Assembly (NCBI GenBank): GCA_003139095.1
Contig: PLHW01000073.1
Location: 14,384-78,383 of the forward strand
DNA from: Acidobacteriaceae bacterium
GTDB taxonomy: Bacteria; Acidobacteriota; Terriglobia; Terriglobales; Acidobacteriaceae
Length of the DNA: 64,000 bases
Reading direction: 5' to 3'
The notes under the pieces were generated by a model that saw only the letters and a list, made by a program, of their open reading frames with translations, was not told the DNA's origin and did not search any database. Of this stretch, positions 9,088-54,921 are shown one piece after another (the first letter of the stretch is position 1; every line of letters begins with the position of its first letter). Position numbers and translations under genes: made by a program.

Positions 9088-11874
9088 ATGGCCCGCTGCA
9101 ACTCCTGCCATGTCGAAGTTCCGCCCCTGGCACGATTCTGCTCCTCGTGTGGCAACGTAATCTCGACCGACGATGTCGCCACGCAGTTAAGCGACGCGCC
9201 CGCGCTCAGCCCCGACCAGATTCCAACGCTAGTCTCGTCGCAGCCGCTGCCCGCATCACCGCGCCCTTCGCGCGCGCCCTCCGGTTCTCCATCAAAGACA
9301 AGTCATCCCATTTCTTCGTCCTCCGACGCGCTGCTGAATCACGGCAGATTTCTTCCGGGCTCGTTGGTCGCGGATCGCTACCGCATAGTCGCACTGCTCG
9401 GGCGAGGCGGCATGGGCGAGGTGTACCGCGCGGACGACCTCACGCTCGGTCAGCCGGTCGCGCTCAAGTTCCTGCCCGAAGAGGCCAGCCACGATCCGGC
9501 TCTGCTCGACCGGTTTCGCGCCGAAGTCCGCATCGCGCGCAAGGTCTCGCACCCGAACGTCTGCCGTGTTTACGATGTCGGCGAAGTCGACGGCTCGACC
9601 TACTTCACCATGGAGTATGTCGACGGCGAAGACCTGGCCTCGCTGTTGCGCCGCATCGGGCGCCTGCCCAACGACAAGGCATTGGATATTGCGCGCCAGC
9701 TTTGCGCCGGACTCGCCGCTGCGCACGCCAAAGGGGTTCTGCACCGCGACCTGAAGCCCGCCAACATCATGCTCGACGGCCGCGGCCAAGCCATCATTAC
9801 CGACTTCGGCCTCGCCGCTCTCGCCGGTCAGGCGCACGGCGCGGAGACGCGCAGCGGCACTCCAGCCTATATGGCGCCCGAGCAACTCTCCGGCCAAGAG
9901 GTGACCGAGAAGAGCGATATCTACGCGCTCGGCCTCGTGCTCTACGAACTCTTCACGGGCAAGCGCGCGTTCAGCGCTGACAATCTGGCCGATCTCGTGC
10001 GCTCGCGGGCAGCGGGTGTTGTCAGCCGGCCATCGTCGTTCGTAAAGGACCTCGATCCGCTCGTCGAGCGCGTCATCCTGCGCTGCCTGGAACCGGATCC
10101 GGCAAAACGCCCGGCCAACGCGCTTTCCGTGGCTGCGGCATTGCCCGGAGGCGATCCGCTCGCGGCGGCGTTGGCTGCCGGAGAGACGCCGTCTCCGCAG
10201 ATGGTCGCGGCGGCGGGCGCGCATGAGGGCATGAATCCGAAGCTCGCGTTTCTCTGTCTTGCGGCTTGTGTTCTTGCACTCGCAACTTGCGTGTACCTGA
10301 TTACGCGGACCGACGGATTGTCGCGTCTTCCACTCGATCAGTCTCCCGACGTGCTGACGTACGATGCGCGCGAGATCGTCGCCAAACTCGGCTACGATGC
10401 CAAGCCGGTTGACTTGGCGATCGACTTCGACTACGACTTTGACTTTGTCCGATGGGCGGAGGCGAATGACAAGTCTGCGAATTGGAACAGGATTCTCGGA
10501 GAACAGCCGCCGGTTTTGCGCTTCACCTATCGCCAAAGTCCGCGCTACCTGTTCCCGGATGAGTTTCAGCGGTCCATGACTCCCGGGATCGTGACGTTCA
10601 CCGATCCTCCGACCACGCAGGCGGGCATGATCAACCTCATGCTCGATCCCGCCGGGCGCCTCCTGTACTTCCAGGCGCTGCCGCCGGAGCTGGACGAAGA
10701 CTCGAGTGCGGCGAAGCCGGTCGACTGGACGCCATTGATGGCGGCCGCGGGGATCGATCTTGCGAAGTTTCAACCCGCCACACCGCAATGGACTTCGCTG
10801 GCCAACTCCGACACGCGGGCCGCCTGGACGGGTTCGTGGCCGGGCAGCGAACGCCCGCTGCGGATTGAAGCCGCCACCTGGCGCGGCAAGCCCGTTTTCT
10901 TCCAACTGGTCGGGCCGTGGACGCGGCCGACGCGCCAGCGTCCCGACGAGCCTACCCGGGCCAGAAAGATTTCACAGATCGTCGAAGCCATATTGTTCCT
11001 CGTTGTGGTGATGGGCGCCGCCGCGCTCGCCCGCCGCCATATCAAACAGAATCGAGCCGACAAGCAGGGCGCTTTCCGCCTCGCGATCTTTGTCTTTGTT
11101 GTGCAATTGGCAATCTGGATCTGCTACGGCCACTTCGTGCCCGATTTGGACAACATGCTGGGCATGCTTGGCATTTGTGTCAGCACCGCGCTTTTCATGT
11201 CGGGTTTGTCGTGGGGGCTTTACATGGCGCTGGAGCCGTTTGTGCGCAAGCTGTGGCCGCAGACGATCATCTCCTGGACTCGTCTGATCGGCGGGCGGTT
11301 TCGCGATCCGCTGGTCGGCCGCGACATTCTGTTCGGCATCATCCTCGGCCTGACGTGGGTGGTGATTTACGGAATCCGCCTGAGCTATGGCGTGGCGCGC
11401 CTGGGCATTTCGCCGCAGTTGCTGTCCACCGATTCCCTGCTCGGCCTTCGCAGCACACTGGGCGCGTGGATCGTGCAAATGCCCGGCGGTATTCAGGGAA
11501 CGCTATTTTTCTTTTTTATACTGGTGGCGTTGCGTTATCTGCTGCGCAATCCATGGGCCGCGGCAGTCGGCTTCGTGGCGATCTTTACCGTCTTAAAAAC
11601 TCTACCCAGTGAACATCCCGCGCTGGAAGCGACAGGCGCCCTCCTGATCTACGGAATTGCGGCGGTGGCGCTGGTGCGCTTCGGACTGATCACGCTGGGC
11701 GTTGCGGTTTTCATCGCCAACACAATGTTAAATGTGCCGGTCACGTTCGACTTCTCGCGCTGGTACGCACCTTTCGCAATGAGCATTCCGATTGTCATTC
11801 TGGCGCTGGCGATCTGGAGTTTTTCCACGGCGCTCGCCGGGCAAAAGCTGATCAAAGCCGAAATACTGGAGTGA
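9088..11874 (+). CDS. Serine/threonine protein kinase with N-terminal zinc ribbon and polytopic membrane C-terminus
   Basis: 928 residues from ATG 9088; an in-frame TTG 6 bp upstream is less likely. A zinc-ribbon-like CNSCH...CSSCGN pair lies in the first 25 residues, followed by a Pro/Ser-rich linker. The kinase domain (about 95-350) has [39 protein letters not shown] and MAPEQ. One membrane helix follows near 385-405 (LAFLCLAACVLALATCVYLI), then an outer domain of about 220 residues, and from about residue 635 several hydrophobic helices to the C-terminus. This architecture (zinc ribbon, kinase, sensor, multi-pass tail) is familiar in Acidobacteriota but its ligand is unknown. It faces away from the TPR kinase at 5766. 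Confidence 0.9.
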   Translation: MARCNSCHVEVPPLARFCSSCGNVISTDDVATQLSDAPALSPDQIPTLVSSQPLPASPRPSRAPSGSPSKTSHPISSSSDALLNHGRFLPGSLVADRYRIVALLGRGGMGEVYRADDLTLGQPVALKFLPEEASHDPALLDRFRAEVRIARKVSHPNVCRVYDVGEVDGSTYFTMEYVDGEDLASLLRRIGRLPNDKALDIARQLCAGLAAAHAKGVLHRDLKPANIMLDGRGQAIITDFGLAALAGQAHGAETRSGTPAYMAPEQLSGQEVTEKSDIYALGLVLYELFTGKRAFSADNLADLVRSRAAGVVSRPSSFVKDLDPLVERVILRCLEPDPAKRPANALSVAAALPGGDPLAAALAAGETPSPQMVAAAGAHEGMNPKLAFLCLAACVLALATCVYLITRTDGLSRLPLDQSPDVLTYDAREIVAKLGYDAKPVDLAIDFDYDFDFVRWAEANDKSANWNRILGEQPPVLRFTYRQSPRYLFPDEFQRSMTPGIVTFTDPPTTQAGMINLMLDPAGRLLYFQALPPELDEDSSAAKPVDWTPLMAAAGIDLAKFQPATPQWTSLANSDTRAAWTGSWPGSERPLRIEAATWRGKPVFFQLVGPWTRPTRQRPDEPTRARKISQIVEAILFLVVVMGAAALARRHIKQNRADKQGAFRLAIFVFVVQLAIWICYGHFVPDLDNMLGMLGICVSTALFMSGLSWGLYMALEPFVRKLWPQTIISWTRLIGGRFRDPLVGRDILFGIILGLTWVVIYGIRLSYGVARLGISPQLLSTDSLLGLRSTLGAWIVQMPGGIQGTLFFFFILVALRYLLRNPWAAAVGFVAIFTVLKTLPSEHPALEATGALLIYGIAAVALVRFGLITLGVAVFIANTMLNVPVTFDFSRWYAPFAMSIPIVILALAIWSFSTALAGQKLIKAEILE

Positions 11875-11916
11875 GCGCCCCCGGAACGGCCATGTTTGCG
11901 TTGGCCCAGTCGCACG

Positions 11917-12645
11917 CTACGATGCCCACCCGAAATACACGGCCACTACTCCAAACGTGTCAATGAATCCATGCGCCAGGATGCAGACCCACAAGTTCCG
12001 TCCCGACAAAATGTACGCCGCCCCAAGCACCAGCCCCGCCATTCCTGAATCCACAATCCCTGCCGGACCTTTGTAGTAGTGCCCGTATCCAAAGAGCACG
12101 GACACAATCAGAACGCCTGTCCAGTACGCGGCCTTCGATCGACTGCCCACGTCCGCCGCCCGGTTGACGAGATAGCCCCGGTATCCAATTTCTTCTCCGA
12201 ACGCCGCGAACGTCCAGACCAGTCCCAACCAGCGTAACGCTACCCAAGCATGGCCGGTGATTTCATTCATGCCACTGGGTGCAATCGCCGGAGGCCAGAC
12301 GCGCGCAGTAAGCGGATCTATCGCCAGCGCACTGAGTAAAATTCTGGCCGCTGCCGCAGCTAAGGCAATCAAGACGGTGCGCCGCCACGCGACCGGCCAG
12401 CGCAGGCCCATGGCAGCCCAGCCTCCGTCGCGCAGCCGGAATGAAACCATTCCAAGCACAAACAGGATGGGCACCTCGTTGGGAATCACTCGAAACACAT
12501 TGTGCCCGATTACAATCGCGCTTCCGAGAAGAAGCTCGAGCAGTGAGAGCCCGCGTTGGCCGGGCGAAAGCAAGAGCGGCCCTGACACACTCGACGGCTC
12601 CCTCTGTCGAATAAGAGGCTCGGTAACTTTGATTGCTTCACCCAT
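11917..12645 (-). CDS. CPBP-family intramembrane metalloprotease (CAAX protease-like)
   Basis: 242 residues with about six hydrophobic helices. The family motifs are present: EEIGYRGYL (EExxxR) near residue 150, FGYGHYY (FxxxH) near 190, and HGFIDTFG close to the C-terminus. The ATG at 12645 is preceded by GGGGAAG at a good distance. It is the last gene of a minus-strand set after padR and the HAAS protein, 24 bp behind the latter. CPBP proteins cleave prenylated proteins in eukaryotes or act in peptide and membrane stress processes in bacteria; the substrate here is unknown. PadR control of a membrane protease suggests an envelope-stress role, by inference. Confidence 0.88.
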   Translation of the reverse strand: MGEAIKVTEPLIRQREPSSVSGPLLLSPGQRGLSLLELLLGSAIVIGHNVFRVIPNEVPILFVLGMVSFRLRDGGWAAMGLRWPVAWRRTVLIALAAAAARILLSALAIDPLTARVWPPAIAPSGMNEITGHAWVALRWLGLVWTFAAFGEEIGYRGYLVNRAADVGSRSKAAYWTGVLIVSVLFGYGHYYKGPAGIVDSGMAGLVLGAAYILSGRNLWVCILAHGFIDTFGVVAVYFGWAS

Positions 12646-12669
12646 AAGTCTTCCCCTGACTTTGCTGGA

Positions 12670-13287
12670 TCACTTTTGCCGCAATGCTCGTGAGCGGCGG
12701 TATTGCCGCGCAGACCAGAGGGCAAAATGCGTGGTCAGCATTAGGAGCCCAAAGCCCAACGACAATCCGACGGGTACGATCGTCCAGCCCAGCAGTTCCC
12801 GCGCCCCCGCCGGCGGAGCGCCGAATCCGAGTCGAACCGAGTACGTGACGTCCCCGCTGTGGCGCCAAATCCATAGACCCGCGGCGTCCGGGTGAAACGG
12901 TTTCAGAAGAGCCACGAGGAAGAAACTGATTCCAGCCCCATATCCGATGACCGACAGGAGTAAGACGAAAAATCCGGCGACGCTCATGCCCGCCCATCGG
13001 AATAGGCTGGCCAAAACGCTCGCCGGCGACCGGTTGACTTCGGCCCGCACCAAAACCGCGTCCGTCACGTATTCTTGCGCCAGTTCTTCTGGATTGCCCA
13101 GCGCTGCCAGTGCCGCATCCACGCCCGCAACCGTCAGTTCTCCGCCCATTGCAGCCTTGTCTGCGATGTGGCTGCGCAGTTCCTCGAGGATTTCGCCAAT
13201 CTCCTCCGGCTTCAAACCTCCGAGACTCTCGCGCAGCCGGTTCAAATAGGCGTCAGTCTTCATTTGTGCGTCGCTTGCCACTGTCAT
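12670..13287 (-). CDS. HAAS-domain membrane protein, PadR partner
   Basis: 205 residues. The N-terminal about 75 residues are a helical HAAS/DUF1700-type domain (YLNRLRESLGGLKPEEIGEI, LRSHIADKA, ALAALGNPEELAQEYV). After a short linker come two or three hydrophobic segments (VAGFFVLLLSVIGYGAGISFFLVAL; WTIVPVGLSLGFGLLMLTTHFAL) and a basic tail. Its ATG overlaps the padR stop (ATGA), so the two are translationally coupled. HAAS proteins are regularly encoded right behind PadR repressors and are thought to link them to a membrane module, here perhaps the CPBP protease. Confidence 0.82.
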   Translation of the reverse strand: MTVASDAQMKTDAYLNRLRESLGGLKPEEIGEILEELRSHIADKAAMGGELTVAGVDAALAALGNPEELAQEYVTDAVLVRAEVNRSPASVLASLFRWAGMSVAGFFVLLLSVIGYGAGISFFLVALLKPFHPDAAGLWIWRHSGDVTYSVRLGFGAPPAGARELLGWTIVPVGLSLGFGLLMLTTHFALWSARQYRRSRALRQK

Positions 13288-13658
13288 TTGTGCCCCTTTC
13301 CGAGCGGACCCAGCAGCTTGCCCATGCTCGATGAGAACCGCGCCCAGATCGCCGCCATCTCATGCGCACGCTTTTTTCCTGCCGCCGTCAGCGCATAGTA
13401 TTTCCGCGGATGCCCGCCGTCGGACTCCACCCACTCGCTGCGCACCAGGCCGAGCGCCTTGAGCCGGCTCAGCAAGGGATAAACCGTTCCCTCGGACACG
13501 ATTAAGTCGGAATCGCTCTCCAGGCGCCGCAGGATCTCCAGCCCATAGAGCTTTCCCTCCCACAACGCCGCCAGGATCGCCAGTTCAAGGCATCCCTTGC
13601 GGAGCTGCACCTCCCACTTGTCGGGAGATTCCGGTTCAGGCACTGCCGGCAGCTTCAT
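13284..13658 (-). CDS. PadR-family transcriptional regulator
   Basis: 124 residues from the ATG at 13658. The frame is open for 23 more codons, but these run through the operator and contain a Gly run, so the inner start is preferred. It carries the PadR winged-helix signature: LELAILAALWEGKLYGLEIL, EGTVYPLLSRLKALGLVRSEW and GGHPRKYYALTAAG. PadR proteins are usually autorepressors released by small hydrophobic or phenolic compounds or antibiotics. A matching palindrome lies just before the start codon. The stop codon overlaps the HAAS start, forming the operon padR-HAAS-CPBP. Confidence 0.92.
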   Translation of the reverse strand: MKLPAVPEPESPDKWEVQLRKGCLELAILAALWEGKLYGLEILRRLESDSDLIVSEGTVYPLLSRLKALGLVRSEWVESDGGHPRKYYALTAAGKKRAHEMAAIWARFSSSMGKLLGPLGKGHK

Positions 13659-13664
13659 GGCTGC

Positions 13665-13685
13665 ATATCTTGTAATACAAGGTAT
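13665..13685. promoter_or_regulatory. PadR-type operator
   Basis: A 21-bp palindrome lies 6 bp before the padR start codon: outer arms ATA/TAT, inner arms CTTGTA (13669-13674) and TACAAG (13676-13681) around a central A. It fits the PadR half-site pattern and its place over the ribosome-binding region suggests autorepression. Confidence 0.72.
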
Positions 13686-13780
13686 CGTGTTGTCAAGAGA
13701 AATCCCGCCCCCACCCCCTCCGGACATTTACAATAGGATTTTCAACGCGTAATCTGCCCCGGAGCTGAAAACTGTTTTCC

Positions 13781-14533
13781 ATGCCCCACGACAAATCCCC
13801 ATCTCCCGACGAACGCTTGCAGCAGGAATTCAATGGCTGGGCCGAACGCGGCGAAGGCCCGAAGATGGAGAACCATCATCTCGATATCACCGAGAAAACG
13901 CTGCGCCGCATGGAGTTGCGGCCGGGGGAACGCGTGCTCGATCTCGGCTGCGGGTCCGGCTGGGCGACGCGGCTTTTAGCGCGCCTCGTCGGCGAGGGCC
14001 CGCAGGGCTTCGGCCAGGTGGTTGGGCTTGACATCTCCGACGAGATGATTCGCCAGGCTCGCGCGGCTTCAAAAGATTTTGAAAACGTAATGTACGTACA
14101 GGGATCGGCGGCGCAAATTCCGTGGGAGGAGAACTTCTTCGACAAGGTTCTATCGGTCGAATCGTTTTATTACTATCCCGATCAGGAGCGCGCGCTGGCG
14201 GAGTTGTTCCGCGTGATGGCTCCGCATGGACGCCTCTTCATCCTCATCAACCTCTACAGAGACAATCCGTACTCGCTGCAATGGGTGCCCAAGCTCAAAG
14301 TGCCGGTGCATGTTCGGTCGGCCGAAGAGTATGCCGCTCTGCTGAAGGCGCATGCGTTTGAGAAAGTCGAGTATGCGCAGATTCCCGACGACACGCCCAC
14401 GCCGGAGAATTACCAGACCACATCGTTCCACTCCCTGGACGACATGAAGGCCTTTAAGCGGGTGGGTGCGTTGCTGCTGATGGCGTCGAAGCCCGATGTG
14501 CGGAATCCAGCGCCGGGGTACACGATTTATTAG
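13781..14533 (+). CDS. Class I SAM-dependent methyltransferase
   Basis: 250 residues. Motif I of class I methyltransferases is clear ([18 protein letters not shown], about residues 47-64), followed by [25 protein letters not shown] and the post-motif segment [20 protein letters not shown], which resembles the UbiE/Methyltransf_11 group. The substrate cannot be told from sequence. It is divergent from padR with a 122-bp spacer, and about 100 bp upstream of nuoB. Its last residues (PGYTIY) show no membrane segment, so it is cytoplasmic. Confidence 0.88.
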
Positions 14534-14574: not shown

Positions 14575-14588
14575 GTGACCGCCATCAC
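14575..14588. promoter_or_regulatory. CRP/FNR-type site GTGA-N6-TCAC before nuoB
   Basis: GTGACCGCCATCAC, centred 53 bp upstream of the nuoB start. The same palindrome stands before hypC, hypD, both crp genes and the multiheme cytochrome operon. Outer bases are T and T (TGTGA...TCACT). Confidence 0.55.
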
Positions 14589-36995: not shown

Positions 36996-37009
36996 GTGAT
37001 CTCGATCAC
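36996..37009. promoter_or_regulatory. CRP/FNR-type site GTGA-N6-TCAC before hypD
   Basis: GTGATCTCGATCAC, palindromic out to GTGAT-CTCG-ATCAC, preceded by T. It is centred about 77 bp before hypD and is the second such site within 430 bp. Confidence 0.7.
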
Positions 37010-48065: not shown

Positions 48066-48081
48066 TGTGATTGGCATCACA
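48066..48081. promoter_or_regulatory. CRP-type palindrome between tonB and crp
   Basis: TGTGATTGGCATCACA, a perfect palindrome (TGTGAT-TGGC-ATCACA) equal to the classical CRP consensus TGTGA-N6-TCACA. It is about 115 bp from the tonB start and 133 bp from the crp start, so it may serve either gene. Confidence 0.7.
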
Positions 48082-48136: not shown

Positions 48137-48150
48137 GTGATACTCGTCAC
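48137..48150. promoter_or_regulatory. CRP/FNR-type site GTGA-N6-TCAC before the first crp gene
   Basis: GTGATACTCGTCAC, followed by A, centred about 63 bp before ATG 48207. Probably autoregulatory. Confidence 0.65.
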
Positions 48151-48206
48151 AGGGAGTGCGGACCGCGAACACGCTACTTCCCAACGAGGTCACAAAGGGG
48201 TGTGAG

Positions 48207-48929
48207 ATGCTCTCACCATACGGACTAGACATTATCGAAAGTTGTCTTACCTGCAAAATGCGCGCTGAACGGCTGTTCTGCGATCTACCGACGGCGGCGC
48301 TGCAATCGTTCGAGAGCATCAAATACGCCACTGCCTACCCCAAGGGCGCGGTTCTCTTCGTCGAAGGCCAGGCCCCGCGCGGCATTTTCGTCCTGTGTAA
48401 AGGGCGCGTGAAACTTTCGATCTGTGCGAGCGACGGCAAAACTCTCATCCTCAAAATCGCCGAACCGGGCGAAGTTCTCGGGCTGAGCGCCGCGGTCTCC
48501 GGCAAGGCCTACGAATTGACCGCTGAAACCATCGATCCCTGCCAGGTCAACTTCGTCAAGCGCGATGATTTTCTCCGCTTTCTAAAGGAGCATAGCGACG
48601 CCTGCTTCAAGGTCGCCGAGCAGCTCAGCGAGAAATACAACGTCGCGTGCCATGAAGTCCGGTCGCTCGGCTTATCTCATTCGGCCGCCGAAAAACTCGC
48701 GAAGCTGCTGATCGAATGGAGTTCGCGCAACGGCGAGTCGCAGAAGCAGGAGCCACGCTTGAAACTGGCGCTGACGCACGAAGAGATCGCGCAGATGATC
48801 GGCACGTCGCGCGAGACGGTGACGCGCCTCTTCGCCGATCTCAAAAAGCGACAGATTCTCCAGACCAAAGGCTCGACGCTCGTCATCCGCAACAAGGCTG
48901 CGCTGCGCTCGCTCGCCACCACCGGCTAG
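48207..48929 (+). CDS. Crp/Fnr-family transcriptional regulator with N-terminal Cys cluster
   Basis: 240 residues from ATG 48207 (AAGGGG 7 bp before). Cys13, Cys16 and Cys25 (ESCLTCKMRAERLFCDLP) form an FNR-like N-terminal cluster; further Cys occur in FVLCKGRVKLSICASDG, so an iron-sulfur cofactor is possible. The cyclic-nucleotide-fold beta-barrel (YPKGAVLFVEGQAPRGIFVL) is followed by the dimer helix and a winged helix with LTHEEIAQMIGTSRETVTRLF. The recognition helix RETVTR matches the CRP type (Arg-Glu-x3-Arg), predicting GTGA half-sites. Such palindromes precede this gene, its truncated paralogue, hypC, hypD, nuoB and the cytochrome operon. Confidence 0.93.
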   Translation: MLSPYGLDIIESCLTCKMRAERLFCDLPTAALQSFESIKYATAYPKGAVLFVEGQAPRGIFVLCKGRVKLSICASDGKTLILKIAEPGEVLGLSAAVSGKAYELTAETIDPCQVNFVKRDDFLRFLKEHSDACFKVAEQLSEKYNVACHEVRSLGLSHSAAEKLAKLLIEWSSRNGESQKQEPRLKLALTHEEIAQMIGTSRETVTRLFADLKKRQILQTKGSTLVIRNKAALRSLATTG

Positions 48930-48960: not shown

Positions 48961-49009
48961 TGCCACAACCGGTGTGGCAAGGGTCACCATTTTGGGTGAC
49001 TCGAATCAC
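48961..49009. promoter_or_regulatory. Palindrome pair before the second crp gene
   Basis: TGCCACA-ACCGG-TGTGGCA (48961-48979) is followed by GTGACTCGAATCAC (48996-49009), the CRP/FNR-type site, centred about 56 bp before ATG 49059. A further stem GTCACC/GGTGAC (48983-49000) overlaps the latter. Confidence 0.65.
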
Positions 49010-49058
49010 TGTTTATCCTCCCCGCTTGCGCGTATCAACATTCAGGAGTGAATTTTAT

Positions 49059-49550
49059 ATGTCGCAGAGCTGCCTTGACTGTCCGCAGCGTCCGGATCGT
49101 GTTTTCTGTGATTTGGCGCCGGATGCGCTCCAGGAATTCGACGGCATCAAATCTCTCCATGTCCATCCGCGGGGCACCATCCTGTTCCGGGAGGGCCAGC
49201 CGGCGCGCGGGGTATTTTTGCTCTGCGAGGGGCGGGTGCGGCTCACGGTGTGCTCCGAGAGCGGTCGGCGCATGACTTTGCGCGTGGCCTCGGCGGGCGA
49301 AGTCCTCGGCTTGAGCGCCACCCTGGCCGGCGGATGTTACGAAGTGACGGCCGAGGTTTTGGAGCCGTTGCAAGCCGCGGAAGTGCGGCGCCGCGACCTG
49401 CTGAGTTTTCTCCGCGAGCATGGCGAAACCTGCATGCACGTTGTGCATCTGTTGAGCGAAGACTTGCACATGGCCTATGATCGGGTTCGCACGGTCGGCC
49501 TGGTGCGCACGCGGCATAGTCATCCGCACGGCCCGGTTCTGACTCACTGA
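49059..49550 (+). CDS. Crp/Fnr-like sensor protein lacking the DNA-binding domain
   Basis: 163 residues from ATG 49059 (AGGAG 10 bp before). It is a clear paralogue of the preceding regulator: Cys5, Cys8 and Cys17 (SCLDCPQRPDRVFCDL), HPRGTILFREGQPARGVFLLCEGRVRLTVC, GEVLGLSATLAGGCYEVTAEV and the dimer helix up to RVRTVGL. It then ends in RTRHSHPHGPVLTH where the paralogue continues into the winged helix. No helix-turn-helix remnant is visible in the next 300 bp in any frame I read. It may dimerise with the full-length protein or act as a stand-alone redox or ligand sensor; a recent truncation is the alternative. Confidence 0.88.
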   Translation: MSQSCLDCPQRPDRVFCDLAPDALQEFDGIKSLHVHPRGTILFREGQPARGVFLLCEGRVRLTVCSESGRRMTLRVASAGEVLGLSATLAGGCYEVTAEVLEPLQAAEVRRRDLLSFLREHGETCMHVVHLLSEDLHMAYDRVRTVGLVRTRHSHPHGPVLTH

Positions 49551-49591
49551 GGCTTGGGGAAAGTGATTGCCGGGTGCTAGCCGAAGGCCTG

Positions 49592-49630
49592 CCGAGCTTG
49601 GCTCGGCTTAGACAAGGCGGAGCTTTGTCC
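49592..49630 (+). repeat. Double-hairpin element, copy 1
   Basis: GCCGAG-CTTGG-CTCGGC (49592-49608) is followed by GACAAGGC-GGA-GCTTTGTC (49612-49630, one G-T pair). A second copy with compensating changes lies at 49688-49724. The 320-bp spacer 49551-49870 holds these and the palindrome at 49762. Confidence 0.6.
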
Positions 49631-49687
49631 CGAGACGCCCACTAATTCACTAATCCCAAAAGTGACTTCCAGAGATACCGAAAAACC

Positions 49688-49737
49688 AGCCGAGTTTCGC
49701 TCGGCTTGGAGGGGGCGGAGCCCCATTTCCACATGGG
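49688..49737 (+). repeat. Double-hairpin element, copy 2
   Basis: AGCCGAG-TTTCG-CTCGGCT (49688-49706), then GGGGC-GGA-GCCCC (49712-49724), and CCCAT-N6-ATGGG (49722-49737), which overlaps the second stem. The GGA loop and the GCCGAG stem are shared with copy 1 while the second stem differs on both sides. Confidence 0.6.
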
Positions 49738-49761: not shown

Positions 49762-49775
49762 GTGACCCGAGTCAC
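49762..49775. promoter_or_regulatory. CRP/FNR-type site GTGA-N6-TCAC before the multiheme cytochrome operon
   Basis: GTGACCCGAGTCAC, palindromic as GTGAC-CCGA-GTCAC, preceded by T. It is centred about 102 bp before ATG 49871. Confidence 0.65.
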
Positions 49776-49870: not shown

Positions 49871-51916
49871 ATGGCAGGATGGGCAGGCAACAGGGCCGTC
49901 AGGAGGCTCGCCTGGGCCGCTCTGTTCCTATTTCTGGCCACTGCGGGCGCTGCCCCTGCCGCCGACGTCTCCAACGACGACTGCCTCGCCTGCCACGGCG
50001 ATAAGTCCCTTACTACCACCAAGGGCGGCAAAACCGTCTCCCGCTTCGTCGATGCCAAGAAGTTCAAGTCTTCCGTCCATGGCCCGCTCTCCTGCACCAA
50101 CTGCCATGCCGATCTGGAGGGCAAGGAGCTTCCCCACAATGCCCCCCTGGCCCGGGTTGAGTGTGGAACCTGCCACACCGAAGAGTACAAGCAGCACTCT
50201 AACTCATTGCACGGCAAGGCGATCGCCCGCGGCGACACGCTGGCACCTCACTGCGTGGACTGCCACGGCAATCACGATATCGTTCCAGTCAAGGATAAGA
50301 ACTCGGCTGTCGCCCCTCTGCGCATCCCCTTCGTTTGCGGCCGCTGCCACCGCGAAGGCACGCCGGTGCAGATGAACCGGAACATCGACCAGCACAATAT
50401 TCTGGAAAACTACTCGGAGAGCATCCACGGCGAGGCAGTGCTCAAGAAGGGCCTGATCGTGGCCGCGACCTGCGCCTCCTGCCATACACCGCACAACATC
50501 CTGCCGCATACCGACCCCAACTCGTCGATTAACCGGCGCAACATCGCGGCCACCTGCACCAAGTGCCACGCCCAGATCCAGGAAGTCCATCGCAAGACGA
50601 TCCGCGGCGAACTCTGGCAGAAAGAGGCCAACACCCTCCCTGCCTGCATCGATTGCCATCAGCCCCACAAGGTACGCAACGTGTTTTACACGCAGGGTAT
50701 GGCCGATGCCGATTGCATGCGCTGTCATGCTAACCAGAGCTTGAAGGCCGCGGACGGGCGCGCAATGTTTGTGCAGGCTGCCGACGTCGCCGGCTCGCGC
50801 CACGCCAAAGTGGCTTGTAGCCAGTGCCACTCGGAGGTCAACGCCTCGCGCGTGCGCCCCTGCGAAACCATCACGCATCCGGTCGAGTGCAGCAAGTGCC
50901 ATGAAGAGGTCGGACAGCTCTACCAGCGCAGCCGCCACGGCCAGTTGCAGGCTTCCGGCGACCACAATGCTCCCAACTGCAAGGACTGCCACGGGAGTCA
51001 TCATGTCCTCGGCAAGCACGATCCCGAGTCCGTCAGCTTCCCCACGAATGTGCCGACGCTTTGCGGCGGCTGCCATCGCGAGGGGCAGAAGGCTGCGGTG
51101 CGCTACACCGGCCGCCAGCACGAAATTATTCAGCACTACACGGAAAGCATCCACGGCCAGGGGCTGAACAAGAGCGGGTTGACCGTGACAGCGACTTGCA
51201 CCAGTTGCCATACCGCACACTTAATTCTGCCGCGCACCGATCCCGATTCCAGCGTGAACCCGAAGAACGTGCCCGCCACGTGTGGGGCCTGTCATCACGG
51301 AATTCAGGAGCAGTTCATCCAGAGCGTCCACTCCGCCTCGGTCACCAAGACTGACAAGCCTCTGCCCGTTTGTAGCGATTGCCACACGGCTCATTCGATT
51401 CGCCGCACCGACGAGGCCGGATTCAAGCTCGACATCATGAACACCTGCGGGCGCTGCCACGGCGAGATTGCGAAAACTTATTTCGAGACCTATCACGGCA
51501 AGGTTTCGCGGCTTGGATATACCAACACTGCCAAGTGTTACGACTGCCACGGCTCGCATGACATTCTGCCGGTGACCGATCCGCGCTCGCACCTGAGCCG
51601 CGCCAACGTGGTGGCGACTTGCCAGAAGTGCCACTCGAACGCCACGCGGCGATTTGCCGGCTATCTGACCCATGCCACGCACCACGACCCGAAGAAATAT
51701 CCATTTTTGTTCTGGACGTTTTGGGGAATGACCGCGCTGCTACTTTCCACATTCGTTTTTGGAGGGATTCACACTTTGCTGTGGCTGCCGAAAGCTCTTG
51801 AAATGCGCCGTGAACTACGCGCCGAAGAAGCCGCTGCCCACGCCGCTGGTTCGCCGGCGGCCTCGGACGGCAACTCACCCGACGGCGTCAGCAAGGATGG
51901 AAACCATGGCAACTGA
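49871..51916 (+). CDS. Multiheme c-type cytochrome with 19 CxxCH motifs
   Basis: 681 residues. A signal peptide (VRRLAWAALFLFLATAGAAPAAD) precedes 19 CxxCH heme sites, from DDCLACHGD near residue 38 to TCQKCHSN near 590. The sites come in repeated blocks such as YSESIHGEAVLKKGLIVAAT-CASCH-TPHNILPHTDPNSSINRRN-CTKCH, each about 60-100 residues, so the protein grew by internal duplication. A membrane helix near 605-630 (FWTFWGMTALLLSTFVFGGIHTLL) anchors the C-terminus. It probably carries electrons across the periplasm between a membrane cytochrome b and a partner. The next gene, a cytochrome b, overlaps by 11 bp. Confidence 0.93.
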   Translation: MAGWAGNRAVRRLAWAALFLFLATAGAAPAADVSNDDCLACHGDKSLTTTKGGKTVSRFVDAKKFKSSVHGPLSCTNCHADLEGKELPHNAPLARVECGTCHTEEYKQHSNSLHGKAIARGDTLAPHCVDCHGNHDIVPVKDKNSAVAPLRIPFVCGRCHREGTPVQMNRNIDQHNILENYSESIHGEAVLKKGLIVAATCASCHTPHNILPHTDPNSSINRRNIAATCTKCHAQIQEVHRKTIRGELWQKEANTLPACIDCHQPHKVRNVFYTQGMADADCMRCHANQSLKAADGRAMFVQAADVAGSRHAKVACSQCHSEVNASRVRPCETITHPVECSKCHEEVGQLYQRSRHGQLQASGDHNAPNCKDCHGSHHVLGKHDPESVSFPTNVPTLCGGCHREGQKAAVRYTGRQHEIIQHYTESIHGQGLNKSGLTVTATCTSCHTAHLILPRTDPDSSVNPKNVPATCGACHHGIQEQFIQSVHSASVTKTDKPLPVCSDCHTAHSIRRTDEAGFKLDIMNTCGRCHGEIAKTYFETYHGKVSRLGYTNTAKCYDCHGSHDILPVTDPRSHLSRANVVATCQKCHSNATRRFAGYLTHATHHDPKKYPFLFWTFWGMTALLLSTFVFGGIHTLLWLPKALEMRRELRAEEAAAHAAGSPAASDGNSPDGVSKDGNHGN

Positions 51917-52802
51917 TCTCGGCCTTCCGATCCAGACGCCTTTGCCGGCCCCCGAACGCCGCATGCAACTGCGGCCCGAGCGCGAGTTCGTGCGCTTCAC
52001 GCGGCTGCAACGCGCGCTGCATGCCTGCATGATCGTCAGCTTCATCAGCCTGGCGACGACGGGCATGACGCTCAAGTTTTCTTACACCGGATGGGCGGTC
52101 ATCGTCTCGCATATTTTCGGGGGATTCCAGACGGCGGGCTACATTCACCGCACCGCCGCGGTGCTGATGTTTGGCGTGTTCTCCACGCACGTCTACAGCC
52201 TGATTCAGCTGAAGAAGAAAGAGCGCAAATCGTGGCTCGCGCTGATCTTCGGGCCCGATTCCATGATGCTCAATCGCCAGGATCTCGTTCAGTTCATCGC
52301 TACCATGAAGTGGTTCATCGGGCGGGGTCCGCGGCCACAATACGGCCGCTGGACGTACTGGGAAAAATTCGATTATTTCGCCGTGTTCTGGGGCATCGCG
52401 GTCATCGGAACCACCGGCTTGACGTTATGGTTCCCGGTTTTCTTCACCAGGCTGCTGCCGGGATCGTTCATCAACATCGCCACCATCATTCACAGCGACG
52501 AGGCTCTACTGGCGACCGGCTTCATCTTCACGGTGCATTTTTTTAACACGCACCTGCGGCCGGAAAAGTTCCCGATGGACACCGTTGTTTTCACCGGCCA
52601 CATGCCGCTCGCCGAACTCAAGCGCGACAAGCCGCTCGAATACGAAGCCCTCGTCGCCAGCGGCCAACTTGACGAACACATGGAAGAGCCGCAACCGGAA
52701 ATCGTGGTACGCACGATTCGTGGTTTTGCCTGGGTGGCGCTCGGCATCGGTTTCAGCGTGGTGATCTGGATTATTTACGCCATGATTTTTGCGTATCGCT
52801 AA
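51906..52802 (+). CDS. Di-heme cytochrome b membrane subunit
   Basis: 298 residues from ATG 51906, overlapping the previous gene. Four or five membrane helices hold paired His residues: RLQRALHACMIVSFISLATTG, YIHRTAAVLMFGVFSTHVYS, and HSDEALLATGFIFTVHFFNTH, the pattern of quinone-reacting cytochrome b subunits (FdnI/HyaC type). It has no heme c. It probably exchanges electrons with menaquinone and passes them to the 19-heme protein. The same domain occurs fused to the multiheme protein encoded next, where the helices and spacing correspond (for example FTYAEKAEYWALVWGVFVM against WTYWEKFDYFAVFWGIAVI). Confidence 0.88.
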   Translation: MATDLGLPIQTPLPAPERRMQLRPEREFVRFTRLQRALHACMIVSFISLATTGMTLKFSYTGWAVIVSHIFGGFQTAGYIHRTAAVLMFGVFSTHVYSLIQLKKKERKSWLALIFGPDSMMLNRQDLVQFIATMKWFIGRGPRPQYGRWTYWEKFDYFAVFWGIAVIGTTGLTLWFPVFFTRLLPGSFINIATIIHSDEALLATGFIFTVHFFNTHLRPEKFPMDTVVFTGHMPLAELKRDKPLEYEALVASGQLDEHMEEPQPEIVVRTIRGFAWVALGIGFSVVIWIIYAMIFAYR

Positions 52803-52815
52803 AGGAGTCGTCACC

Positions 52816-54921
52816 ATGACGGCAGCAAGAAAACTCGGATTGCGCCTCGGCCTCACGATGGCCTTCACTCTGCTCTGGGCTTTGCCGGCCCTTGCCGGCG
52901 ACCAGGACTGCCTGGCCTGCCACGGCGATCCGGGAATGAAATCCGAGTCGGGCAAGAGTCTGCACGTCGATCCCGCCAAACACAAGTCCAGCGTCCACGG
53001 CGATCTCGGATGCACCACCTGCCACGAGGGAGTGAAGGAGTATCCGCATCCGAAGAACATGAAGATGCCGACTTGCGCGACGTGCCACTCCGACGAGACG
53101 GCGCAGGTTCCGCAAAGCGTGCACTCCATTCTAGGCAAAGCCGCCTGCGCCAGTTGCCACGGCAAAACGCACGAGGTGCAGCACGCCGATAAATTAGTTC
53201 CGCAGCAATGCGCGACCTGCCACGAAGACGCCGTACACGGCTACGAGCAGGGCGTTCACGCCATCGCCCGCAAAGATGGCGACAAGCAGGCGCCGACTTG
53301 CCTGGCGTGCCACGGCAGCCCGCACCAGATTCTCGCCGCCGACGATCCGAAGTCGCCTGTTCACCACAACAATATTCCCGCCACCTGCGGCACATGCCAC
53401 GGACAGAAATTCGTGATGGCGGGCGCCGGCCAGAGTACCCAGGAGTATTTGTCCTATCAGCAGAGCGTGCACGGGCGCGCCGTGGCCAACGGATCCACCA
53501 AGGCTGCCGTCTGCACCGACTGCCACGGCGTGCACAAAATCCTTCCCGCCAGCAACGATAAGTCCTCCATCTTCAAGTTCAACGTTCCCACCACCTGCGG
53601 CAAGTGCCATGAATCGATCAAGGCCGAGTTCATGCAGAGCATCCATGGACAGGCCATCGCGCGCGGCAATTCGCTGGCTCCCGTGTGCACCGACTGTCAC
53701 GGCATTCACTCCATTAAGTCGCACCTCGATCCGAACTCCCCGGTAAACGCGCAGAACCTCGCCCGGCTGACTTGCGCCCGCTGCCATGAAGGCGTACGGC
53801 TGTCGCAGGAAATCGGCGTCGCAGGCTCCCGCGCCTCGACTTATCTTGAGAGCTATCATGGCCTGGCGAACGAGCGCGGCTCGCAAATCGTCGCCAACTG
53901 CGCCAGTTGCCACGGTTCGCACTACATTTTGCCGTCGAGCGATCCGCGCTCCACCATCAACGCGGCCAACCTGGTGCGCACTTGCGGCCAGTGCCATCCC
54001 GGCGCCTCGGAAAAATTCACGCTCGGCAAGATCCACGTGGACGCGCCGCTCTCCGCCGACATCGGCAGCAAAGCGGTGCGCTGGATCCGCAGCTTTTACT
54101 TGCTGATGATCTTTGGCGTGATCGGCGGCATGTTGCTGCACAATCTCATCATCTGGCGGCGCAAAGCCATTCTCCGCCGCGACGCCTATCCGCGAATCGT
54201 CACCCGCATGAACGCCAACCAGCGGTGGCAGCACCTCACGCTGCTGCTCTCGTTCTTCACGCTGGTGATCACCGGCTTCGCGCTCAAGTATCCCGATTCT
54301 TTCCTCTCGCTGATCCCGGGCATGGGCGAGCGCGTGCGCCCAATCATCCATCGCATCGCCGGAGTCATCATGATCGGCGCGGGCGTTTACCATCTGGTTT
54401 ACGCGGCGCTCACTCGCGACGGCCGCAAACTGATCCTCGACCTGCTGCCGGAGCCGAAAGACGCTACCGACGTTGTGGGCGTTATGCGCTACTATCTCGG
54501 GCTCGGCGGTTCCAAGCCCGAATTCAAACGCTTCACCTACGCCGAAAAAGCCGAGTATTGGGCCCTGGTTTGGGGCGTATTCGTCATGGCCGCCACGGGC
54601 ATTGCCCTCTGGGGAAAGGTCGTGGTCGGCCATCTCTTCCCGCGCTGGTGGCTCGATGTCGCCACCGCCGTCCATTTCTATGAGGCGATTCTCGCTACGC
54701 TCGCCATTATCGTGTGGCACTTCTATCAGATTTTCCTCGACCCCGACGTGTACCCGATGAATTGGGCCTGGTGGGATGGCAAGGTTTCCGCGCACCACTA
54801 CAGCGAAGAGCATGGCCTCGACAGCGCGACCCTGCTCGCAGCCGAGTCGCATGCGGCCGGCAACGGCGATTCCGCGCCCGGCGCCGAAAACGAGACGTCC
54901 GAGAAGCCTACGCGTCATTGA
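52816..54921 (+). CDS. Fusion of a 13-heme cytochrome c and a cytochrome b domain
   Basis: 701 residues from ATG 52816 with AAGGAG upstream. A signal peptide (LGLTMAFTLLWALPALAGD) is followed by 13 CxxCH sites between about residues 32 and 400, in repeats such as YQQSVHGRAVANGSTKAAV-CTDCH-GVHKILP. From about residue 415 it continues into membrane helices with His pairs: NQRWQHLTLLLSFFTLVITG, HRIAGVIMIGAGVYHLVYA, and VHFYEAILATLAIIVWHFYQ. The membrane part is homologous to the separate cytochrome b just upstream, so this gene is the fused form of the same two-part device. It should take electrons from or give them to the quinone pool. Confidence 0.93.
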   Translation: MTAARKLGLRLGLTMAFTLLWALPALAGDQDCLACHGDPGMKSESGKSLHVDPAKHKSSVHGDLGCTTCHEGVKEYPHPKNMKMPTCATCHSDETAQVPQSVHSILGKAACASCHGKTHEVQHADKLVPQQCATCHEDAVHGYEQGVHAIARKDGDKQAPTCLACHGSPHQILAADDPKSPVHHNNIPATCGTCHGQKFVMAGAGQSTQEYLSYQQSVHGRAVANGSTKAAVCTDCHGVHKILPASNDKSSIFKFNVPTTCGKCHESIKAEFMQSIHGQAIARGNSLAPVCTDCHGIHSIKSHLDPNSPVNAQNLARLTCARCHEGVRLSQEIGVAGSRASTYLESYHGLANERGSQIVANCASCHGSHYILPSSDPRSTINAANLVRTCGQCHPGASEKFTLGKIHVDAPLSADIGSKAVRWIRSFYLLMIFGVIGGMLLHNLIIWRRKAILRRDAYPRIVTRMNANQRWQHLTLLLSFFTLVITGFALKYPDSFLSLIPGMGERVRPIIHRIAGVIMIGAGVYHLVYAALTRDGRKLILDLLPEPKDATDVVGVMRYYLGLGGSKPEFKRFTYAEKAEYWALVWGVFVMAATGIALWGKVVVGHLFPRWWLDVATAVHFYEAILATLAIIVWHFYQIFLDPDVYPMNWAWWDGKVSAHHYSEEHGLDSATLLAAESHAAGNGDSAPGAENETSEKPTRH

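Follow-up and report, generated by a model that had tools for sequence, protein, structure and literature searches.

A full-length FNR-like regulator gene, here called LONG, is followed in the genome of an Acidobacteriaceae bacterium (assembly GCA_003139095.1) by a second gene of the Crp/Fnr superfamily, SHORT, whose product stops before the DNA-binding domain. This locus raises the question of whether SHORT is a decayed copy or a working protein and, if it works, what such a subunit may be for. We analyzed a stretch of 64,000 nucleotides (contig PLHW01000073.1, positions 14,384 to 78,383), referred to below as the window, together with related genomes. A preliminary description of the window had regarded SHORT as an intact gene that could tune a regulon through heterodimers incapable of binding DNA. 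Our data indicate that SHORT, rather than being a decayed gene, probably acts as a built-in brake, since it is kept in dozens of species at least, counted on the best matches from 300 family genomes, and lies behind LONG's own type of control site.

SHORT, LONG, and their neighbors

The reading frame, ribosome site, and palindrome of SHORT named in the preliminary description were all found (Table 1). SHORT starts 132 bp downstream of LONG. Both proteins share 48% identity across 146 aa, comprising the Cys cluster, barrel, and dimer helix, after which SHORT stops; its reported end before the winged helix was confirmed in this way and by Pfam. The sole Pfam domain of SHORT above cut-off was cNMP_binding (8.1e-18), and PF00027 scored 64.6 bits against a curated cut-off of 27.5, which places the protein among the Crp/Fnr superfamily sensors. 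The C-terminal HTH_Crp winged helix of Crp/Fnr transcription factors was absent from SHORT in the Pfam scan. Three MAFFT modes aligned the dimer helix of SHORT to those of E. coli FNR and LONG without gaps. SHORT is, consequently, a Crp/Fnr sensor domain with a dimer helix and without a DNA-binding domain. AlphaFold2 monomer models of SHORT, made with 4 and 6 rows, had a mean pLDDT of 45 and 40, and the fold was assigned from sequence matches to solved chains, e.g., DNR.

The start of LONG was set at the conserved MLSPYG, within a longer mechanical ORF (48156–48929). Pfam assigned to LONG both cNMP_binding and HTH_Crp_2. Its recognition helix reads TSRETVTR in the window and [TS]SRETVTR in 46 of the 48 LONG proteins compared; we take it for a CRP-type helix, which recognizes GTGA. 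LONG is probably a gene switch for oxygen-free respiration. The three genes downstream of SHORT (49871..54921, + strand) probably constitute the neighboring regulon. An inverted element resembling GCCGAG..GCTCGGCTT is repeated within the intergenic region between SHORT and the cytochrome genes (49590–49720); by eye, it was missing from the 160 bases 3' of SHORT in five relatives.

Table 1. Positions of the features discussed; numbering is that of the window unless a locus is named.
Feature	Position	Strand	Basis or remark
GTGA-N6-TCAC, tandem form, ahead of hypD and the hyp-hox NiFe hydrogenase genes	36996..37009		
GTGA-N6-TCAC, distal site 5' of LONG	48067..48080		
GTGA-N6-TCAC, proximal site 5' of LONG	48137..48150		
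LONG, full-length FNR-like regulator (Cys cluster, barrel, dimer helix, HTH)	48207..48929	+	
Weaker upstream half of the SHORT tandem operator, GTGG-N6-TCAC	48974..48987		22 bp from the perfect site
SHORT operator GTGA-N6-TCAC, GTGACTCGAATCAC	48996..49009		
-10-like hexamer TATCAA	49033..49038	+	Places the SHORT operator at about -42, class II position
Ribosome site AGGAG of SHORT	49044..49048	+	Sequence; 10 bases 5' of ATG
SHORT, sensor-only Crp/Fnr protein	49059..49550	+	ATG start, 163 aa ORF
Cys C5, C8, C17 (Cx2Cx8C) of SHORT	49071..49109	+	Sequence
Dimer helix of SHORT, within the best conserved segment	49422..49502	+	Alignment, conservation
15-residue basic tail of SHORT with conserved RxR, replacing the winged helix	49503..49547	+	Alignment
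GTGA-N6-TCAC ahead of the multihaem cytochrome genes	49762..49775		
Multihaem cytochrome gene	49871–51916	+	Pfam-scanned neighbor
ORF without Pfam match	51759–52802	+	
Multihaem/cytochrome b561 protein gene	52789–54921	+	
SHORT2, second sensor-only Crp/Fnr family	L057 5864–6391	+	Own genome G000:C9; also L061–L082, L029
SHORT3, third sensor-only Crp/Fnr lineage	L058 5204–5698	+	Own genome G000:C17; also L084, L086; distantly L083

Conservation of the tandem

One search covered 41 genomes (own genome and 40 relatives). Orthologues of SHORT with 72–75% identity were found beside LONG in five other species of the genus, all with the gene order TonB, LONG, SHORT, and multihaem cytochrome genes; about 4 kb were inserted ahead of the cytochrome genes in two of them. 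At locus L118, the region between SHORT and the cytochrome genes (10275–13997) encodes two further proteins, a decahaem cytochrome of the DmsE type and, below cut-off, an outer-membrane protein resembling MtrB/PioB; they hint at possible extracellular electron transfer within the LONG/SHORT regulon.

Wider profile searches drew on 250 genomes from the class and on 300 from the family. All SHORT/LONG pairs read among the matches listed belong to one acidobacterial family. Three short frames (<215 aa) from other families, among the class matches listed, are no SHORT copies: in G130, a contig end cuts the copy where the HTH begins, the gene of G252 is of full length, and that of G162 has its HTH in another frame.

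Intact SHORT was present in 47 of the 55 loci read. The remaining eight comprised one gene cut by a contig end (L157), two with a broken frame (L159, L160), a truncated full-length paralogue that is not SHORT (L163), and four loci with a full-length gene and no SHORT (L042, L122, L161, L162). The 47 intact proteins end 1–30 residues past the dimer helix (median 15), and none of them has a winged helix or HTH. Full-length versions in the place of SHORT, which would have spoken for a lineage-specific truncation, were thus looked for among these 47 and not encountered. A full-length LONG-type gene lies directly upstream on the same strand, at a distance of 99–357 bp, for 42 of the 47 genes, representing 24 genera; the conserved short paralogue beside the long one, suggested as a check in the preliminary description, therefore exists. 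No adjacent full-length gene was seen for L138 and L149 (completeness of the MAGs, 67% and 74%) and for L152 and L158 (97% and 99%). L037 was also scored as lacking the upstream gene, though LONG exists there, interrupted by N. The LONG row of L038 is interrupted in the same way, and the set of 48 LONG rows omits L038 and L133.

LONG genes without SHORT were counted inside the genus, where ten relatives (G015 and nine others) have LONG alone in the loci read; SHORT, if a brake, is therefore dispensable. Next to LONG, G015 has a multihaem cytochrome gene. At the loci L044–L051 and L056, the gene next to LONG encodes a radical SAM protein and lies behind a tandem operator with sites 22 bp apart (9/9). 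For the one radical SAM protein scanned, the nearest model was AhbD heme b synthase, just under the model cut-off. By eye, a reading frame resembling HemA often came after the radical SAM gene at these loci. Judging from these matches, anaerobic heme synthesis probably belongs to the LONG regulon.

Selection and origin of SHORT

The dN/dS values of SHORT were 0.084–0.137 (15 pairs, six species), indicating purifying selection, and those of LONG were 0.006–0.045 (10 pairs, five species; L037 and L038 left out, G015, which has no SHORT, included); these ratios are rough because most pairs are close to saturation at synonymous sites. The mean pN of SHORT was lowest in the dimer-helix segment (alignment columns 116–150, 0.092), followed by the N-terminus (0.121), the barrel (0.149), and the tail (0.359).

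The faster evolution of SHORT (dN/dS of about 0.1) and the frame-broken short genes at the two related loci L159 and L160 would agree with decay of a duplicate. Against it stand the purifying selection, the kept promoter, and the end point shared by the 47 intact genes. Moreover, when the three forward frames were searched over ≤600 bases 3' of SHORT, a profile derived from the HTH of LONG detected no remnant of this domain (0/47, best E 1.2), whereas it recovered 47 of 48 full-length genes in the control. In broken full-length Crp/Fnr copies, by contrast, the HTH was recognizable in another frame, as on contig C63 of the own genome (by eye) and in G162 (profile). The earlier view that SHORT does not look like random decay was upheld by the selection, the promoter, and the missing remnant, and a pseudogene was ruled out by the selection, the common end point, and the missing remnant. 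SHORT is almost certainly a conserved, functional, operator-bearing sensor-only protein.

A clade of SHORT and LONG alone was rejected (AU p 0.002), which argues against decay too; SHORT is, therefore, no recent copy, and a recent truncation of LONG was ruled out. A single SHORT clade was not rejected (AU p 0.154). In the tree, five of the 29 SHORT rows were outside the main SHORT branch, their position being unresolved, and the gene upstream of SHORT in G262 was outside the main LONG clade. SHORT and SHORT2 formed one side of a branch with a support of 78/39. Judged by trees with few columns and weak support in places, SHORT appears to form an old lineage of its own.

Operators and promoter

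Seven GTGA-N6-TCAC palindromes were counted in the window against 0.58 expected and a maximum of four among 100 shuffles. No FNR-type site, TTGA-N6-TCAA, was present in the window; GTGA-N6-TCAC occurs instead. Two of the seven sit near hypD of the hyp-hox hydrogenase genes, and the seventh is at 14575. The two palindromes ahead of LONG, 70 bp apart, were also found in 5/5 genus relatives with SHORT, and the proximal one suggests that LONG may be autoregulated. In the own genome, the tandem operator TCAC-N8-GTGA-N6-TCAC had 50 occurrences compared to one for the reversed control pattern; by this count, the predicted Crp/Fnr regulon is large.

The palindrome was located upstream of 46 of the 47 SHORT genes, L158 being the exception, which agrees with the intact promoter palindrome and ribosome site noticed at first. 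A second TCAC, half of a weaker tandem site, lies 12 bases upstream of the palindrome in 44 of these 46 promoters. The best -10-like box (offsets 18–29 tried) starts 22 or 23 bases past the palindrome in 42/46. In an unselected count over the 46 promoters, TA was at offset 22 in 29 and at offset 23 in nine, compared to 0–6 promoters at each of the remaining offsets from 12 to 32 and 12 promoters at offset 33. When the -10-like box is taken as the -10 element, the SHORT operator is centered at -41.5 or -42.5, where CRP and FNR act as class II activators. SHORT is, probably, a member of the regulon controlled by LONG. Since the full-length paralogues L059 and L060 also carry the recognition motif of LONG, we infer the identity of the operator binder from position.

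By eye, the start codon follows just 6–8 bases after the -10-like box in SHORT promoters of other genera (e.g., L124, L125, L137), a spacing that suggests leaderless transcripts there; the window has a ribosome site instead.

Key residues

The N-terminal C5, C8, and C17 were kept in 40–43 of the 47 SHORT proteins, several rows having lost N-terminal Cys, and C125 was present in 47/47. The cluster ligands of E. coli FNR are Cys20, 23, 29, and 122. The Cys122-equivalent position was Cys in 45/48 LONG proteins and in 2/47 SHORT proteins. By hhalign, the Cys of LONG is opposite FNR Cys122, which gives LONG the Cys122 equivalent of a [4Fe-4S] FNR, as in E. coli; three MAFFT modes placed it three residues away and speak against this assignment. 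The four Cys ligands of a [4Fe-4S] FNR were not found in SHORT, where the fourth position is mostly lost and the spacing is Cx2Cx8C. The idea of a normal FNR cluster on the three N-terminal Cys of SHORT is weakened, because the fourth ligand is lost and several relatives lack N-terminal Cys.

At the position of FNR D154, Ala was found in 46/47 SHORT and 48/48 LONG proteins, with three MAFFT modes agreeing across the helix. The FNR I151 position was Leu (43) or Val (4) in the 47 SHORT proteins and Tyr in 48/48 LONG proteins; the two interfaces are, therefore, not identical. Asp154 keeps apo-FNR monomeric. The D154A variant of E. coli FNR is reported to be permanently dimeric, and other family members to be typically dimeric (PMC4214427). 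With Ala at this position, LONG and SHORT would be expected to dimerize with or without a cluster. The lost Cys122 ligand together with Ala at 154 predicts that SHORT dimerizes without FNR-like sensing.

SHORT shares the sensor barrel, dimer helix, and CxxC with E. coli FNR and with the P. aeruginosa DNR sensor construct 2z69. It differs from E. coli FNR in the absence of an HTH and a fourth Cys, in Cx2Cx8C for Cx2Cx5C, and in Ala for Asp154, and the sites here are GTGA-N6-TCAC and not the TTGA-N6-TCAA of FNR.

The tail had been described as His-rich. This holds for the species of the window (4 His in 15 residues) but not for the family, in which the tail is Arg-rich with a conserved RxR (R150 in 44/47, R152 in 46/47); a His-rich metal-binding tail as a family trait was thus ruled out.

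Other sensor-only lineages

Two more sensor-only lineages, SHORT2 and SHORT3, sit just 3' of a tandem operator (TCAC-N8-GTGA-N6-TCAC) in the own genome, on G000:C9 and G000:C17, respectively. SHORT2 has no Cys cluster, occurs in 24/24 genomes of the genus, and ends in the conserved tail SAHPGRPRHRPLDEQLN. It lies near a gene for a Ser/Thr kinase with PEGA domains and near TonB_C/receiver-like genes (one genome scanned, L063), and the palindrome was found upstream of it in 17/24, in 13 as a tandem. The SHORT3 palindrome lies 64–89 bp ahead of the start in 4/4 rows, one of them a distant match. With a SHORT2 profile searched against 120 family genomes (E ≤1e-35), the matches listed were SHORT2-like and SHORT rows and no LONG row. 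A common origin of SHORT and SHORT2 may be considered on weak tree support (78/39). As a tentative and somewhat doubtful extension, the GTGA-N6-TCAC regulon might own a set of three lineages of DNA-binding-free sensor subunits, each of which could feed a separate signal into full-length Crp/Fnr proteins by subunit exchange, forming a combinatorial damping network.

Proposed role of SHORT and alternatives

We propose, at about even confidence, that LONG activates SHORT and that SHORT:LONG mixed dimers with one DNA-binding domain damp the regulon. LONG, FNR-like with a CRP-type recognition helix, would bind GTGA-N6-TCAC about 41.5 bases before the transcript start of SHORT and activate it. SHORT would pair through its retained dimer helix, the cluster not being needed with Ala at 154, and pairing with LONG would give dimers with a single DNA-binding domain and a poor hold on the palindrome. 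Such negative feedback could limit or sharpen the expression of cytochrome, hydrogenase, and similar genes.

DNA-dead heterodimers would agree with the helix being retained, with an Ala at D154 that permits dimers, and with the operator before SHORT. The tandem in 42/47 loci, the purifying selection with the lowest change in the helix segment, the operator spacing, and the Ala at 154 count for a brake, as do the recognition helix of LONG, the heterodimers reported for FNR paralogues in Herbaspirillum (PMC5934665), and the two further lineages sharing the tandem operator. On the other side, the kept dimer helix fits SHORT homodimers equally well, four SHORT genes have no full-length neighbor, LONG occurs without SHORT in genus relatives, and the conserved RxR would be superfluous for a simple dominant-negative protein; the recognition motif shared by L059 and L060, the divergent upstream gene of G262, and the different residues of LONG and SHORT at the I151 position also count against it.

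With RxR conserved in the tail and LONG missing at some loci, the partner of SHORT may also be another protein than LONG. SHORT could act as a homodimer whose RxR tail binds RNA, DNA, RNA polymerase, or a signaling protein, i.e., as an effector of the regulon and no brake. We regard this as rather unlikely: RxR is the most conserved feature past the helix, and SHORT2 has a conserved tail of its own and sits by a Ser/Thr kinase gene, away from LONG, but SHORT stays in tandem with a full-length gene over 24 genera and the tail is variable outside RxR.

It is improbable that the SHORT:LONG heterodimer serves as an activator of another kind, in which a single DNA-binding domain, together with the basic tail lying on the second half-site, alters operator choice. 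The main SHORT operator keeps both half-sites exactly in 46/47, and no link emerged between SHORT and any promoter class in which a half-site is degenerate, even though the tail is located where the DNA-binding domain would begin, SHORT operators have a weaker upstream half, and heterodimeric Fnr co-activation was proposed for Group III promoters of Herbaspirillum (PMC5934665).

A sink that buffers the same signal (cluster, O2, NO, or other ligand) with no contact with LONG has little probability. Such a role would explain the kept barrel and the mostly kept N-terminal Cys; however, the Cys122 position is not Cys in 45/47 SHORT proteins, and several rows have lost N-terminal Cys, yet retain the helix and its Ala. 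That SHORT is a decaying duplicate of LONG can practically be dismissed on the evidence for selection, promoter, end point, HTH remnant, and phylogeny given above.

Comparison with known systems

TrlR of Agrobacterium is a LuxR-type protein, which SHORT is not; no LuxR-family autoinducer-binding domain was found in SHORT, cNMP_binding being the only Pfam domain above cut-off. TrlR is described as a truncated TraR, dominant-negative via inactive heterodimers, and like SHORT it is a copy of the sensor and dimerization parts of an activator without the DNA-binding domain (PMC6341043). In contrast to SHORT, an old lineage with no HTH remnant, trlR is described as a one-base frameshift allele on pTiR10 and pTi15955 (PMC6341043). 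CerN of Cereibacter sphaeroides is reported to lack the HTH, to bind full-length CerM, and with ligand to weaken DNA binding of CerM; unlike SHORT, it is a LuxR homologue that counteracts CerM repression and acts with homoserine lactone (PMC11655674). The proposed inactive heterodimer would liken SHORT to these antagonists.

Within the Crp type, CrpR1a of Riemerella anatipestifer is reported, in the section available, to be functional without an HTH (PMC13277301). Unlike in SHORT, its HTH is in a small overlapping downstream ORF, with a fused form in some strains, and that section describes no tandem full-length partner such as SHORT has in LONG (PMC13277301). A split of this type, with the HTH in a downstream small ORF, was found at 0/47 SHORT loci. 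The FNR paralogues Fnr1 and Fnr3 of Herbaspirillum seropedicae heterodimerize through the dimer helix, according to the part of the article consulted; unlike SHORT, they are proposed co-activators, and no copy without a DNA-binding domain is described in that part (PMC5934665). No DNA-binding-free FNR paralogue beside its activator came up in searches of the open-licence PMC literature. The principle is known for the LuxR proteins TrlR and CerN, and its conserved Crp/Fnr version appears new.

Among bacteria, dominant-negative partners that lack a DNA-binding domain have been known from single cases, those found being the frameshift allele TrlR and CerN. If the proposed brake is true, subunit exchange would be a designed part of oxygen and redox control in a major soil phylum, and LONG and SHORT would represent a clean two-gene feedback module.
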